Positions 31,174 through 62,439 of a stretch of 64,000 bases of DNA are shown here, piece after piece; the first letter of the stretch is position 1; each line of letters opens with the position of its first letter. The notes beneath the pieces were generated by a model. That model saw nothing but the letters and a program-made list of their open reading frames with translations, searched no databases and was not told where the DNA came from. This DNA comes from Plastoroseomonas arctica (lineage in GTDB: Bacteria; Pseudomonadota; Alphaproteobacteria; Acetobacterales; Acetobacteraceae), in NCBI RefSeq assembly GCF_018128965.1, contig NZ_JAAEDH010000014.1, positions 1 through 64,000 on the forward strand. The letters run 5' to 3'. The translations under genes and the position numbers were made by a program.

Positions 31174-32100
31174 TCAAACACGCCGGGCCTCCGCGGCGCC
31201 AAACAGCCCCTGCGGCCGGACCAGCAGCACCGCCACCATGATCAGGTAGGGCACCACCACTTCCAGCTCCGGCGCGAAATACACCGCCACCGACCGCCCC
31301 AACCCTATCAACAGCGCCGTCAGCGCCGCCCCCTCGATCTGTCCCAGCCCCGCCGTCGCGATAACCGCAAACGACAGCACGATCGTCTGCGCCCCGATCC
31401 CCGGCACCAACGACGTCGTCGGCGACGCCAGCGCCCCACCCAGCGCCGCCAGCACCGCCCCCGCCGTGAAGGTCAGCAGGAACACCTTCTTCGCATCGAT
31501 CCCCATCGCCGTGGCCGCCTCGCGGTCCACCGTCACCGCCACGATCACCCGCCCCGTCAGCGTGCGCCGCAGGAACCACGCCAGCCCCACCAGCGTCGCC
31601 ACCGCCACCCCAGGCAACAGAAACAACTGATAGGCCGTGAACGGGATCACATCGCCGGCGAAGGGCACATCCACCGTCCCCAACCACCGCACCGCCACGT
31701 CATTGCTCACGGGTTGCACGCCCCAGATGAGCTTCTGCGCATCCTCCAACACCATGAACAATGCGAAGGTCACCAACAGCTGGATCACCGGCTCCTCGCC
31801 ATAGATCCGGCGCAACAACCCCCGCTCGATCACCGGCCCCAACACCAACCCCACCAGCACCGCCGCCGCCAACAACACCGGCAGACACGCCCATAACGGC
31901 AACCCAGCCACCCCCCCCAAACTCGCCGCCGCATAAGCCCCGATCGCATAGAACGACCCATGCGCGACGTTCAAAACGCGCAACACCCCAAACACCAGAT
32001 TCAAACCCACCGAAACCATGAACACCAACGCCGCATAGGCAAGCCCATCAAGCAAGGCGAGGCCCAGCAGCAGGCCGTTCTCATCGAACCAGGTGATCAT
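31174..32100 (-). CDS. livH: Branched-chain amino-acid-type ABC permease LivH
   Basis: 308 residues. GLNLVFGVLRVLNVAHGSFYAIGAY is the LivH N-terminal signature; DREAATAMGIDAKKVFLLTF is the cytoplasmic coupling loop. The start at 32100 (MITWFDENG) is the family start. It is separated from the upstream receptor gene by the long inverted-repeat element at 32109-32401, which abuts its ribosome-site region (GGAAGAAAGG on the plus strand, so little Shine-Dalgarno character). Confidence 0.88.
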   Translation of the reverse strand: MITWFDENGLLLGLALLDGLAYAALVFMVSVGLNLVFGVLRVLNVAHGSFYAIGAYAAASLGGVAGLPLWACLPVLLAAAVLVGLVLGPVIERGLLRRIYGEEPVIQLLVTFALFMVLEDAQKLIWGVQPVSNDVAVRWLGTVDVPFAGDVIPFTAYQLFLLPGVAVATLVGLAWFLRRTLTGRVIVAVTVDREAATAMGIDAKKVFLLTFTAGAVLAALGGALASPTTSLVPGIGAQTIVLSFAVIATAGLGQIEGAALTALLIGLGRSVAVYFAPELEVVVPYLIMVAVLLVRPQGLFGAAEARRV

Positions 32101-32108
32101 GGAAGAAA

Positions 32109-32401
32109 GGCCAGGGGCGCTGCCCCTGGACCCCGCGAGGATCGTGTCGATCCTCGAACTCCATCTGTTGGTTCCTGGGATTGGGAGGGTGGTTCTGGGT
32201 CGTTGTCCGGAATGCCTGTCATCGGGAGAGGGTGGCCGGAGGGGCGCTGCCCACTGGTGAGCGCAGGCCGGCCACCCTCTCCCGATGACAGGCCCTGATA
32301 AAAGTCCAGAGCCCACCTTCCAGAACCAGGACCAACACATGCAGGGGCCCGGGGATCGGCGCGATCTCCGGCGGGGGTCCAGGGGGCAGCGCCCCCTGGC
32401 C
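32109..32401. repeat. Long imperfect inverted repeat (MITE-like) between Liv receptor and permease genes
   Basis: The two ends mirror each other: GGCCAGGGGCGCTGCCCCTGG from 32109 and, read on the other strand from 32401, GGCCAGGGGGCGCTGCCCCC. Similarity continues inward along both arms. The centre has a perfect 26-bp inverted repeat (32214-32239 with 32268-32293) around a 28-nt spacer. No open frame or transposase is present. Transcribed from the receptor gene towards livH, it would form a very long RNA hairpin. Its left half (32106-32189) matches 43809-43892. Confidence 0.8.
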
Positions 32402-32420
32402 TGTCATCCGTGATCACGGC

Positions 32421-33728
32421 TCAGATGGCCACGCCCACGCGGTTCTCCATGCCGGGCGTGAGGGTCTTCAGCCAGTCGGTGCTTTTCTGTCCGACGGGTG
32501 TGCTGATCTCTTCGGGGTTGTAGCGCAACATCCTCTCGGGCACGGCGTAGGGGTAGCGTTCGCCGTGCGAGGACAGCCCGACGATCTGTTCCTCGAGGCC
32601 CTGCCCGTCGGAGCGCAGCGTGATGGAGGCGGTGGGCGTGGGGAAGGTCAGCCCGCGGAAGGCGGCGGCCAGTTCCTGGTCGTTGGGCCACCCGCCGGAC
32701 TTCGCCTCGATGGCCTTCGCGTAGGCGGCGCGCAGCGCCCAGACCGCCTGGGCCATGTGGTGCACGGGGTAGATCGGGTATTCGTTGAACCGGGTGCGAT
32801 AGCCTTCGACGAAGCGGTCGAACGCGGCGCGGTCGCGCGGTGCGGGGTGGTTGATCCAGTGGTCGCCGCGCGCGCCGATGATGTGCCCGACGGGCATCGC
32901 GCGCCCGAGCGCGGGCATGGAGGGTTCGGAGACCGGCATCACGAACAGCGAGCGCTCGAACAGCCGGCGTTCCGTCGCCTGGCGGATCAGCGTGGTCAGT
33001 TCCCCGCCCCAGGAGGTGGAGAGCACGACATCGGGGCGGAGTGCGAGCAGGCGGGTGATCTCGGTCGAGAAATCGGTGCTGTTGAAGCGCGGGAACATCT
33101 CCGCCACCACGCGCACGCCGGGCTTGAGCGCGTCCATCGCGGTCTTCCACAGCTCCCAGGAATCGCGGCCCCAGGCGTAGTCCTGGTTGATCACCGCGAT
33201 CGAGCGGAAGTCGGGCTTGTGCTTGAGCAGGTACAGCAGCGGCGCCATCAGTTCGGGCGTGCCGTAGCCCTGGGTGCGGAAGGCGAAGGGGTGGCTGGCG
33301 TCCTCGAAACTGCGCTGGGTGCCGCAATCCCACAGGATCGTCGTCTTGCGTAGCTCGTCGGAGAGTGGCGTGCAGGCGAGGCAGGAGCCCGAGGAGATGG
33401 AGGCGAACATGACGTGCACGCCCTCGCTCTGCACCAAGCGGCGGAACTCGCCGACCAGGTGTTCGGTCCCCGGGCCTTCATCGACGAAGAGCGGGCGGAC
33501 GGGCACGCCGCCGATGCCGCCCTCGCGGTTCACCTCGTCGAACAGCCATTGCGCCGCGCGCTGTCCGGGCACGCCGAAGACCGAGGCGGGGCCGGAGAGG
33601 AAGGTGGTGATGCCGACCTTCAATTCGGCGGGCTTCGGCACCGCCTGGGCGGAAAGCGTGTTCGGCAGGACGACGCCGCAGAAGCCTGCGGCGAGCAGCG
33701 CCGCACGGCGCGTGATTCCGTTGGTCAT
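32421..33728 (-). CDS. Liv-type ABC substrate-binding protein
   Basis: 435 residues. The signal peptide has TRRAALLAAGFCG (Tat-like Arg pair), cleaved near LSAQA. The mature part is a type I periplasmic binding fold (Peripla_BP_6): LKVGITTFLSGPASVFG, then FASISSGSCLACTPLSDELRKT and AVINQDYAWGRDSW. These receptors bind amino acids, amides or aromatic acids; the ligand is not readable. A strong GGAGGGAA site precedes 33728. It is the first gene of the Liv operon. Confidence 0.88.
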   Translation of the reverse strand: MTNGITRRAALLAAGFCGVVLPNTLSAQAVPKPAELKVGITTFLSGPASVFGVPGQRAAQWLFDEVNREGGIGGVPVRPLFVDEGPGTEHLVGEFRRLVQSEGVHVMFASISSGSCLACTPLSDELRKTTILWDCGTQRSFEDASHPFAFRTQGYGTPELMAPLLYLLKHKPDFRSIAVINQDYAWGRDSWELWKTAMDALKPGVRVVAEMFPRFNSTDFSTEITRLLALRPDVVLSTSWGGELTTLIRQATERRLFERSLFVMPVSEPSMPALGRAMPVGHIIGARGDHWINHPAPRDRAAFDRFVEGYRTRFNEYPIYPVHHMAQAVWALRAAYAKAIEAKSGGWPNDQELAAAFRGLTFPTPTASITLRSDGQGLEEQIVGLSSHGERYPYAVPERMLRYNPEEISTPVGQKSTDWLKTLTPGMENRVGVAI

Positions 33729-33840
33729 GACCTGTTCCCTCCGAGCGTTTTCGTTCTTGGCCGGGAGCATGACTGCGCCCGCCCGCGCTGGGAAGGGCGA
33801 AGATTTGCCGCGAACCCTACGCGAACACTAGGTTGCGCGC

Positions 33841-42195: not shown

Positions 42196-42603
42196 ATGCC
42201 GAACCTGCCATCCGAAAACGCCATCACGGCCTTCCTCGCCGCTTGCCGCTTCAACGAGGCCGGGCTGATCGCCGCCATCGCCCAGCAGCACGATACCGGC
42301 GAGGTGCTCATGCTCGCCTGGATGGACGCCGAGGCCGTGCGCGAGACGCTGGCCACCGGCCGCGTGTGTTACTTCTCGCGCAGCCGCAACCGGCTCTGGC
42401 GCAAGGGCGAGACCTCCGGCCAGACCCAGGCGCTTATCGACCTCCGCCTCGATTGCGACGGCGACACCATCCTGGCCCTGGTCGACCAGATCGGCGTCGC
42501 CTGCCACACCGGCCGGCAGAACTGCTTCTTCCAGGCAATCCGCGACGACGCGCTGGTGCCCATCGCCGAACCGCTCATCGAGCCCGAAAAACTCTACCGA
42601 TGA
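42196..42603 (+). CDS. hisI: Phosphoribosyl-AMP cyclohydrolase HisI
   Basis: 135 residues, without a HisE domain. VLMLAWMDAEAVRETLATG and YFSRSRNRLWRKGETSGQ are the substrate loop; the zinc and magnesium ligands DCDGDTILALVDQ (Cys87, Asp90), ACHTG (Cys103) and QNCFF (Cys110) are all kept. It opens the N1-C6 bond of PR-AMP in histidine synthesis. Its place between zur and a COG0523 GTPase rather than in a his operon suggests it is a zinc-regulated or second copy. Confidence 0.93.
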   Translation: MPNLPSENAITAFLAACRFNEAGLIAAIAQQHDTGEVLMLAWMDAEAVRETLATGRVCYFSRSRNRLWRKGETSGQTQALIDLRLDCDGDTILALVDQIGVACHTGRQNCFFQAIRDDALVPIAEPLIEPEKLYR

Positions 42604-43589
42604 GCACGCCGGTCACGCTGATCACCGGCTTCCTCGGCGCCGGCAAGACCACCCTGCTCAATCGCCTGCTCAAGCACCCCGACCTCGCCGAGACCGCCGT
42701 GCTGATCAACGAATTCGGCGATGTCGGCCTCGACCACTTGCTCGTCGAGACGCTCGACGACACCACCATGCTGCTGGCCGCAGGCTGCCTGTGCTGCACC
42801 ATCCGCGGCGACCTGCACAAGGCACTGATGGACCTGACCGCGCGCATCGAGTCCGGCCAGCCCATCCGCCGCGTGATGATCGAGACGACCGGCCTCGCCG
42901 ACCCCGCGCCCATCCTGCACACGCTGATGAGCGACCCCGTCCTGCTGCGCCGCTTCCGCCTCGACGGCGTGATCACCCTCATCGACGCCACCAACGCCAT
43001 GCACACGCTCGACGCCCACCCCGAGGCGCTGAAACAGGCCGCCGTCGCAGATCGCATTATCCTCACCAAGACCGACCTGGGGCCCGACACGGCCCCACTC
43101 CGCACCCGCCTCGCGGATCTCAACCCGCACGCGCCGATCCTCGCCGCCGACGCCGAACCCGCAGCCCTGCTCGACCTCGGTCCCTTCCAGCTGAACGCCA
43201 AGCTGCCCGACGTCGCCCACTGGCTCGGGCACGAAGCCGGCCACGCGCACCACCACCATCACCACGACCGCAACCGGCACGACGCCCATATCCACAGCTT
43301 CACGCTGCGTTACGACCAACCCCTCACCCTCGACGCCGTCGCCAGCTTCCTCGAAATGCTCGTCACCACCCGCGGCGACGCGCTGCTGCGCGTGAAAGCC
43401 ATCCTCAACATCCAAGGCGAAGACCGGCCGACCGTGCTGCACGGGGTGCAACATATCTTCCACCCACCCATCCGCCTCAGCGCCTGGCCCGACGGCGACG
43501 ACCGCAGCTCACGCTTCGTGTTCATCGTGAAGGACCTGACGCGAGAGACCGTGGAGCGCGGCCTCGCCGCGTTCATCGAGGCGGCATGA
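42600..43589 (+). CDS. COG0523 (CobW/ZNG1-like) GTPase, probable zinc metallochaperone
   Basis: 329 residues. Walker A is TGFLGAGKTTLLN at 9-21; the invariant metal motif Cys63-Leu-Cys65-Cys66 follows in AAGCLCCTIRGDL; GTP specificity is in ILTKTD; a run of six histidines with GHAHHHHHH is at ~220; the C-terminal CobW_C domain begins near 240. Zinc-associated COG0523 proteins use GTP to load client enzymes. ATGA overlap with hisI suggests HisI as the client (inference). Confidence 0.9.
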   Translation: MSTPVTLITGFLGAGKTTLLNRLLKHPDLAETAVLINEFGDVGLDHLLVETLDDTTMLLAAGCLCCTIRGDLHKALMDLTARIESGQPIRRVMIETTGLADPAPILHTLMSDPVLLRRFRLDGVITLIDATNAMHTLDAHPEALKQAAVADRIILTKTDLGPDTAPLRTRLADLNPHAPILAADAEPAALLDLGPFQLNAKLPDVAHWLGHEAGHAHHHHHHDRNRHDAHIHSFTLRYDQPLTLDAVASFLEMLVTTRGDALLRVKAILNIQGEDRPTVLHGVQHIFHPPIRLSAWPDGDDRSSRFVFIVKDLTRETVERGLAAFIEAA

Positions 43590-43602
43590 GCGGGCAGAAG
43601 GC

Positions 43603-43616
43603 GGGCGGCTCCGCCC
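43603..43616. terminator. Short GC hairpin after the COG0523 gene
   Basis: GGGCGG and CCGCCC form a 6-bp stem with a 2-nt gap, 14 bp after the stop. No T tract follows; a weak terminator at best. Confidence 0.3.
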
Positions 43617-43808
43617 CCGTTCGACGTATACTTCGAAGCCCCGCCAGGAGCCTTTGGCCCCTGCCCCCCCCTTTGTTGGTCCTGAGTTGGGTGAGGGTGT
43701 GCTTGCTGGAATGGGGCGGGTTGGGGAGGAGACGCTTTACAGGAGTTCGCTTGGATCAAGGGTGCTCCACGCGCCCCCTCCCCAGCCCGCGACGCCTCCG
43801 GCGCGACT

Positions 43809-43892
43809 CCCTCACCAAGTCAAAAACCAACCCATGGAGGTCCAGGATCGACACGATCCTGGCGGGGTCCAGGGGCAGAGCCCCTAGCCTTC
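43809..43892 (-). repeat. Interspersed repeat, second copy
   Basis: Read on the minus strand this 84-bp segment matches 32106-32189 without gaps, about 69 of 84 bases identical; the core is TGCCCCTGGACCCCGC then AGGATCGTGTCGATCCT. It lies in a 314-bp space (43590-43903) between the COG0523 gene and lpxB that holds no convincing gene. The rest of that space, including GGCGGGGCTTCGAAG on the minus strand near 43635, also looks repeat-derived. Confidence 0.8.
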
Positions 43893-43903
43893 TGGCCTAG
43901 CCC

Positions 43904-45251: not shown

Positions 45252-46226
45252 ATGACCCTTCCCCGCCGCGCCCTTCTCGCCGCCTCCGCCAGCGCGCCCT
45301 GGGCGCTGCCCGCGCTCGGCCAGACGGCACGCCCGCCCGTGACCATGGTGGTGCCCTACGCCGCCGGCGGCGGCACCGATATCGTCGGCCGCGAATTCGG
45401 CCCCCTCTTCGCCGAGGCGCTGGGCCAGACCGTGGTGATCGACAACCGCGGCGGCGCGGCGGGCCATGTGGGCTCCATGTCGGTGGCCCGCGCGCGGCCG
45501 GATGCGACGACCATCCTGTTCGCCGTCTCGACCAACATCATCGTCAACCCGCACCTCCAGCGCGGCGACCGCATTGACCTGGCGGCGTCCCTCGCACCCA
45601 TCGCGCAGGTCTCGACCTACCAGTATGTGCTGGCAATCGACCCGCGCCTGCCGGTCACGACGCTCGCCGAGCTCTCCGCCTATGCCCGCTCCCGCCCGCC
45701 GAGCGACCTGAGCTTCTCCTCGGCCGGCGTCGGCTCCAACAACCACCTGGCCGGGCTGCTGTTTGCCGAGCGCGTGGGCTTCGAGATGGAGCACATCTCC
45801 TACCGCGGCACCGGGCCCGCGCTGCTCGACGTGGTCGCCGGGCGCGTGACGATGAACTTCTCCTCGCCGCCGCCGGCGATCCCGCTGATCCAGGACGGCA
45901 AGCTGCGCGCGCTCGCCGTCACCGGTGCAACCCGCATGGCGAGCCTGCCCGACGTGCCCACCCTCGCCGAAGCTGGCATGCCGGGGATCACCATCACCGG
46001 TTGGCACGGCATCTTCGCCCCCGCCCAGACGCCGGCCGCCGATCTAGACCGCATGCATGAGGCAGCCCGCCGCGCCGCCGCGCGGCCCGAATTCGCCGGC
46101 AAGCTGGAGCGGGATGGGCTGGAGGCCGCGCCGCCGCGAAGCCGCGCGGAGTTCACCACCCTGGTGCGGGAGGAAAACCGCTTTTGGGCGGGGAAGGTGC
46201 GCGAGCTGAATATACGGCTCGATTGA
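45252..46226 (+). CDS. Bug-family (TctC) tripartite tricarboxylate transporter receptor
   Basis: 324 residues. Signal peptide to ~24 (PRRALLAASASAPWALPALGQ). VTMVVPYAAGGGTDIVGREF and VVIDNRGGAAGHVGSMSVA are the carboxylate-binding loops of Bug receptors; ISYRGTGPALLDVVAGRV and the YAAGGG loop are diagnostic. It binds an unknown carboxylic acid in the periplasm. No TctA/TctB genes are near, as is common for the expanded Bug family. The 160 bp before it hold no gene. Confidence 0.88.
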   Translation: MTLPRRALLAASASAPWALPALGQTARPPVTMVVPYAAGGGTDIVGREFGPLFAEALGQTVVIDNRGGAAGHVGSMSVARARPDATTILFAVSTNIIVNPHLQRGDRIDLAASLAPIAQVSTYQYVLAIDPRLPVTTLAELSAYARSRPPSDLSFSSAGVGSNNHLAGLLFAERVGFEMEHISYRGTGPALLDVVAGRVTMNFSSPPPAIPLIQDGKLRALAVTGATRMASLPDVPTLAEAGMPGITITGWHGIFAPAQTPAADLDRMHEAARRAAARPEFAGKLERDGLEAAPPRSRAEFTTLVREENRFWAGKVRELNIRLD

Positions 46227-46253
46227 AGCAAGGCCGCGGAAAGGAATTTCCCC

Positions 46254-46291
46254 GCGAAAACGTATACGTTTTCGCCTTTCTTTTATTTTTG
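46254..46291. terminator. Perfect palindrome with flanking T tract between convergent genes
   Basis: A 22-bp perfect palindrome at 46254-46275 (arms GCGAAAACGTA / TACGTTTTCGC) followed by a T-rich run to 46291, between the stops of the Bug receptor (+) and the oxidoreductase (-). As RNA it gives a hairpin followed by U-rich sequence, a good rho-independent terminator for the plus strand. On the minus strand only a short A/T context is present and it overlaps the stop codon. Confidence 0.65.
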
Positions 46292-62374: not shown

Positions 62375-62384
62375 TGTCCTCAAG

Positions 62385-62439
62385 CTCCGGGCGCCGCCTT
62401 CAGCGGCTTGAAGCGCCGGGCGCCGCCTTCAGCGGCTTG
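62385..62439. repeat. Two-copy tandem repeat, 29-bp period
   Basis: CCGGGCGCCGCCTTCAGCGG occurs at 62387-62406 and again at 62416-62435, each continuing CTTG, in the gap between the HbpS-like gene and the ThDP enzyme. Each copy has GC-rich hairpin potential (GCCGC...GCGGC). Confidence 0.8.

Follow-up and report, generated by a model that had tools for sequence, protein, structure and literature searches.

A REP/REPIN-like palindromic repeat family with mirror-image flanks at gene ends of Plastoroseomonas arctica, including a copy between livJ and livH

In the window, the 64,000-nucleotide stretch of Plastoroseomonas arctica DNA analysed here, a livH-type permease gene (31174..32100, minus strand) lies downstream of a gene encoding a LivJ-type substrate-binding protein (32421..33770, minus strand). 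The whole gap, from the receptor stop codon at 32421 to the livH ATG at 32100, is occupied by a palindromic element, exactly where an earlier note had placed it. With limits based on our end model R1 (matches at 32102-32175, plus strand, and 32328-32407, minus strand) and on the family search, the element spans 32102..32407 on the minus strand, slightly beyond the 32109-32401 previously given. Read on the minus strand, the direction of the liv genes, its order is end B, centre and end A.

End A (32102..32175, plus strand) matches the 77-position end model with an E value of 8.3e-17 and contains two hairpins. Hairpin 1 (32111..32129, plus strand) is formed by CCAGGGGC GCT GCCCCTGG and is terminator-like on the minus strand, with the tail CCTTTCTTCC; hairpin 2 (32136..32156, plus strand) is formed by CGAGGATCG TGT CGATCCTCG, and other self-complementary stems take its place in subfamilies. 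End B (32328..32407, minus strand) matches the same model on the other strand (E 1.2e-13), with hairpin 2 at 32349..32371 and hairpin 1 at 32379..32399, both on the minus strand. Between the ends, the inverted-repeat search detected a central stem of 26 bp (centre type 1), with its left arm at 32214..32239 and its right arm at 32268..32293 (both plus strand), 100% complementary and 28 nt apart, in agreement with the perfect inner stem reported before. Between the outer arms, matches fall into blocks of 12-25 nt, with 88% complementarity between 32093-32117 and 32393-32417 and 79% between 32114-32137 and 32372-32395. RNA folding, proposed earlier as a check, gave -210.7 kcal/mol for 301 nt, against a shuffled mean of -134.2 kcal/mol (z = -13.5; equalled by 0 of 100 shuffles). 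Arm complementarity and fold together confirm that the palindrome, described in the earlier note as an imperfect inverted repeat in the Liv operon, is real and far above chance.

A genome search with this element returned 89 matching stretches; many span its full length, with 73-90% identity, and its self-complementarity explains why both strands are hit. With the 77-position end as a covariance model (A1, R1), we found 141 ends, comprising 11 weak solo ends and 65 inverted pairs, of which 63 measure 274-321 nt; the 65 copies are a lower bound, part of the first-look candidates having been scored. The 4.4-Mb genome thus holds at least 63 full-length copies of about 295 nt each, and the family search of the genome and its relatives, suggested at the outset, revealed a multi-copy non-coding repeat rather than single-copy sequence. 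The architecture consists of hairpin 1, hairpin 2, a long central stem, hairpin 2' and hairpin 1', with two unlike ends: aligned copies carry type A at one end and type B at the other, inverted with respect to each other in nearly all. The foot of the family hairpin has the consensus GAAGCAAGGC. A second copy in the window (43597..43896, minus strand, orientation B>A) has an upstream gene (42600-43589) on one side and lpxB (from 43904) on the other.

Of 10 solo-end regions inspected, most appear to hold a single end a short way behind a stop codon; one holds a compact element that has an inverted partner of its own. The solo ends L259-L268 lie directly behind stop codons with the GAAGCAAGGC foot toward the gene, like single REPs. 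One copy (L146, G000:C2:382110-382690) measures 581 nt, with about 290 nt of AT-richer DNA in place of its centre. Elsewhere in the window, a tandem duplication of 29 nt, 97% identical (family D18), was observed at 62382-62439.

The element had been described as lacking any coding frame. Frames are open across it, such as that at 32097-32417 on the minus strand (106 codons), and 57 of 61 family copies contain some fully open frame, but no one frame is open family-wide; the description thus holds in a loose sense. A conserved reading frame was rejected, since the open frames are scattered over all six frames in the 61 copies, and they are explained by composition, not coding. An Rfam search of the window matched only a tRNA, with no known RNA family above the gathering score at the element. 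Plasmid carriage of the family was likewise rejected, no plasmid match being found. None of the papers retrieved in our literature search names a palindromic repeat in Roseomonas or Acetobacteraceae, and the family is apparently undescribed so far.

The end model matched 35 of 60 Acetobacteraceae genomes, in very uneven numbers, the family being abundant in two members of the genus and in many Acetobacteraceae. At E 1e-4 and with stricter filters, it matched none of 75 other genomes across the class (74 from other alphaproteobacterial families). The two-end design recurs with different lengths in other genera, pairing of the ends by coordinates giving about 200 nt for G050 and 293 nt for G074, and Plastoroseomonas hellenica carries a diverged element of the same design (L200) at the orthologue of the L128 site. 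Many contigs of G074 match the end model in their first 100-270 bases, as if the assembly had been broken by recent, near-identical copies.

Gene context was examined in 65 genomic stretches with our own dicodon gene caller, for which the window and the loci served as training set. All 65 copies are located at gene 3' ends, 26 in convergent and 39 in tandem junctions, with none in divergent junctions. Divergent junctions make up 18% of those free of the element and hold 38% of their intergenic bases; by junction share, the chance of 0 in 65 is about 2e-6. Element ends mostly lie within 15 nt of a stop codon, and in several tandem copies the other end adjoins the next ATG, as at livH. Most gene junctions carry no element. 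As a description, the likeness to REP elements drawn in the earlier note is borne out, given a repeat between receptor and permease genes and a family restricted to gene 3' ends.

At window positions 46225-46285, a short convergent palindrome shares the foot of the family (GAAGCAAGGCC) and carries a genuine T-tract (GCCTTTCTTTTATTTTT). It resembles a common bidirectional terminator and may point to the origin of the element ends.

Relatives make it possible to date the copy at livJ-livH. In 14 of 16 of them, the two genes are spaced by -1 to 21 nt, that is, by a gap free of the element. The metagenome-assembled genome RYN_442 (locus L067; genome G001/G077) also carries the element; boundary and ends agree, and the centre differs. 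This sequence comparison indicates that the element entered the gap in the common ancestor of P. arctica and RYN_442, before their split. Of the copies compared, 22 occupy the same places in RYN_442, and the family is therefore old in the lineage and stably inherited, with centres and hairpin-2 stems replaced at orthologous sites (L147, L173, L188). P. hellenica is without the element at many of the same junctions; as read from the sequences, its lpxB and L142 junctions are stop/start overlaps, that at lpxB being GTGA. The P. hellenica livJ-livH gap (L068) contains an unrelated stretch of 146 nt. L068 and L229, the orthologue of the L176 site, carry a different repeat (CGTGATTCAGACTTTTCGGC and GCCTCAAGTCATCACG), as if another repeat family had used the same junctions in P. 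hellenica.

Pairing is retained in the family while the sequence changes. In the end alignment, whose structure was set by hand because RNAalifold lost most pairs through misalignment, 86% of cells pair, compared with 39-55% after sliding the partners, and 6 pairs have changed on both sides. The central stems of 61 copies have a mean length of 22 bp, are 97% paired and comprise 29 different arm sequences; because the stem taken from each copy was its best inverted repeat close to the centre, the 97% is biased upward, but the variety of arms is free of this bias. Stems at orthologous sites differ by matched changes. Selection on RNA would be expected to leave more G-U than A-C mismatches in tandem copies, and when these were read in the direction of transcription, no such excess appeared (70 vs 64, a comparison of limited power). 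Of the marks of a structured RNA, then, covariation is present and a preferential tolerance of G-U is not, and nothing in the mismatches between the arms points to selection on RNA. As the arms vary yet stay complementary without a G-U excess, the palindrome looks maintained as DNA.

The surprising part of the analysis lies outside the element. Copy by copy, the left and right host flanks resemble each other in inverted orientation (z = 15.5 at 0-30 nt and 12.4 at 15-45 nt), when controlled with mismatched left/right pairings that account for stop codons and composition. The mirror reaches about 45 nt out, into coding sequence, fades at 45-100 nt (z = 1.6), and is present separately in convergent and in tandem copies; at element-free junctions, z is 2.1 (convergent, n = 18) or less. 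At livJ-livH, the start region of livH recurs inverted just behind the livJ stop codon: the livH-side flank with the start codon (32093..32101) is the mirror partner of the livJ-side flank (32408..32417; GTGATCA), as detected by the inverted-repeat search and the family-wide flank test. A G precedes 69% of element-adjacent stop codons, against 22% elsewhere. Direct repeats in the family flanks are nil, with z between -1.3 and 1.3 over the windows tested, a range in which duplications of 2-3 nt would escape. A target duplication at livJ-livH, for which CCATGATCA on both sides in L067 was a candidate, was rejected; as this motif is palindromic and the direct-repeat signal of the family is nil, the L067 flank repeat is taken to reflect inverted copying. 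Mirrored flanks are not a trace that ordinary jumping genes leave.

The left flanks of P. arctica match the right flanks of RYN_442 nearly as well as those within the species (8.68 vs 9.12, p = 0.10), so that this comparison does not demonstrate ongoing conversion of the arms. Since the mirror is common to P. arctica and RYN_442, it arose before their split, either at or after insertion or prior to it. The latter case, insertion into palindromes already present at gene ends, in which the mirrored flanks would be the target rather than the product, is a serious possibility that we hold to be somewhat improbable. It accords with the mirror being shared by the two genomes, and several repeat-targeting mobile elements favour palindromes. 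It fits poorly with the scarcity of such targets, since a flank score of at least 10 is reached at 3 of 195 element-free junctions, compared with 25 of 61 element flanks. Orthologous empty sites in P. hellenica and RYN_442 also show no mirror (z = -0.1, n = 21), although most are too diverged to decide, the signal being lost in simulation at 20% divergence or more. For want of power at that divergence, we dropped the P. hellenica empty sites as proof of a mirror formed after insertion.

The earlier note took the element for a non-autonomous mobile element (MITE), an assignment that did not become established, given that neither a target-site duplication nor a RAYT nor a coding copy was found. 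That the family consists of ordinary MITEs, deletion derivatives of an insertion sequence mobilized by a transposase in trans and without a host role, seems unlikely to us. Terminal inverted ends, a uniform and short length, many copies, the scattering of open frames and the empty sites in relatives are all as expected of MITEs, but a direct target duplication is absent at every window tested, no A/B pair in this genome encloses a gene or a long coding interior (the transposase search covered the Y1 type), and unlike ends with two hairpins each are more REP-like. Searches for RAYT (Y1_Tnp) found none in the P. arctica genome or in RYN_442, and a RAYT partner was rejected on its absence from the family's own genome; RAYT is present in 5 of 60 Acetobacteraceae genomes, with no clear link to element number. 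A host-owned 3' processing element or bidirectional terminator or insulator, selected at gene ends, is improbable: the lack of copies in divergent junctions, the GC hairpin followed by CCTTGCTTCC when each end is read outward, and the similar foot and real T-tract of the short hairpin at 46225-46285 agree with it, but the T-tract of CCTTGCTTCC is short and interrupted, G-U mismatches are not in excess over A-C, the majority of junctions have no element, and at many junctions occupied in P. arctica the P. hellenica counterpart is empty.

We therefore favour, as the probable reading, a REP/REPIN-like family of non-coding palindromes at gene ends, whose arms would be matched as DNA and whose hairpin would favour livJ over livH. 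The family unit would act like a REP/REPIN, as palindromic DNA that spreads within the genome and is tolerated only behind genes. Once transcribed, the element would form a very stable hairpin, and at livJ-livH this would probably cap the 3' end of the livJ message and cut read-through into livH, leaving more receptor than permease, as the earlier note proposed by analogy with malE-malF. Matching of the arms would take place on DNA, with template switching from arm to arm in the course of replication as the likeliest means; such switching could also place an inverted copy of one arm's flank on the opposite side. More tentatively, and with considerable doubt, it may be suggested that replication template switching maintains this dispersed repeat, and perhaps spreads it, as palindromic DNA with no dedicated transposase; insertion or subsequent switching between arms would then leave inverted, not direct, target duplications, with neighbouring gene ends rewritten as mirror copies.

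The family represents an abundant Acetobacteraceae repeat without a RAYT, in a bacterial family from which CGTC repeats have been reported missing (PMC3733652). With dozens of aligned sites in two species, it offers a DNA-level test bed for perfect palindromes and compensatory change. The mirrored flanks warn that neither covariation in such repeats nor an odd final codon in an adjacent gene is necessarily a sign of RNA or protein function. Should the copies within operons act as insulators of genes, then liv, the lpxB operon and others like them would each contain a natural tuning point.

Several known systems resemble the family in part. Like MITEs, its members are short and non-coding, with terminal inverted ends, many copies and empty sites in relatives; they differ in that no target-site duplication or parent transposon was found and that the host flanks are inverted. 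In Escherichia coli, a BIME/REP sits between malE and malF, and there too a palindromic repeat separates the binding-protein gene from the first permease gene of an ABC importer; the sequences are unrelated and the likeness seen is one of position. In the alphaproteobacterium Caulobacter, the CIR intergenic repeats, which were found through GANTC methylation sites, are likewise long elements of inverted-repeat type located at gene ends, but with 0.18 GANTC per copy in the present family, a GANTC-site repeat of that type was rejected here. Template switching homogenizes the arms of inverted repeats (PMC8604942, PMC8794818), and as in template-switch mutations, reverse-complement copying could account for perfect stems and multi-base compensatory changes; such mutations have been described for RNA genes and yeast coding genes (PMC8794818, PMC8604942), whereas the present case is a dispersed bacterial repeat with mirrored host flanks. 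REPs and REPINs are interspersed palindromes, in single or paired inverted units, behind coding regions (PMC3733652, PMC3116915), and REPs are found mainly between convergent and unidirectional genes (PMC3733652), as are the 65 pairs and 11 solo ends described here in kind and the 26 convergent and 39 tandem copies in placement. REPs and REPINs work with RAYT transposases (PMC3733652, PMC3116915), whereas this family has none, is four to ten times longer, forms five hairpins and carries GAAGCAAGGC rather than a GTAG or CGTC tag at the hairpin foot, the GTAG near some copies belonging to host stop codon context. Among interspersed palindromic repeats, we file the family as a REP/REPIN-like variant that corresponds to no catalogued REP and is not established as a MITE.
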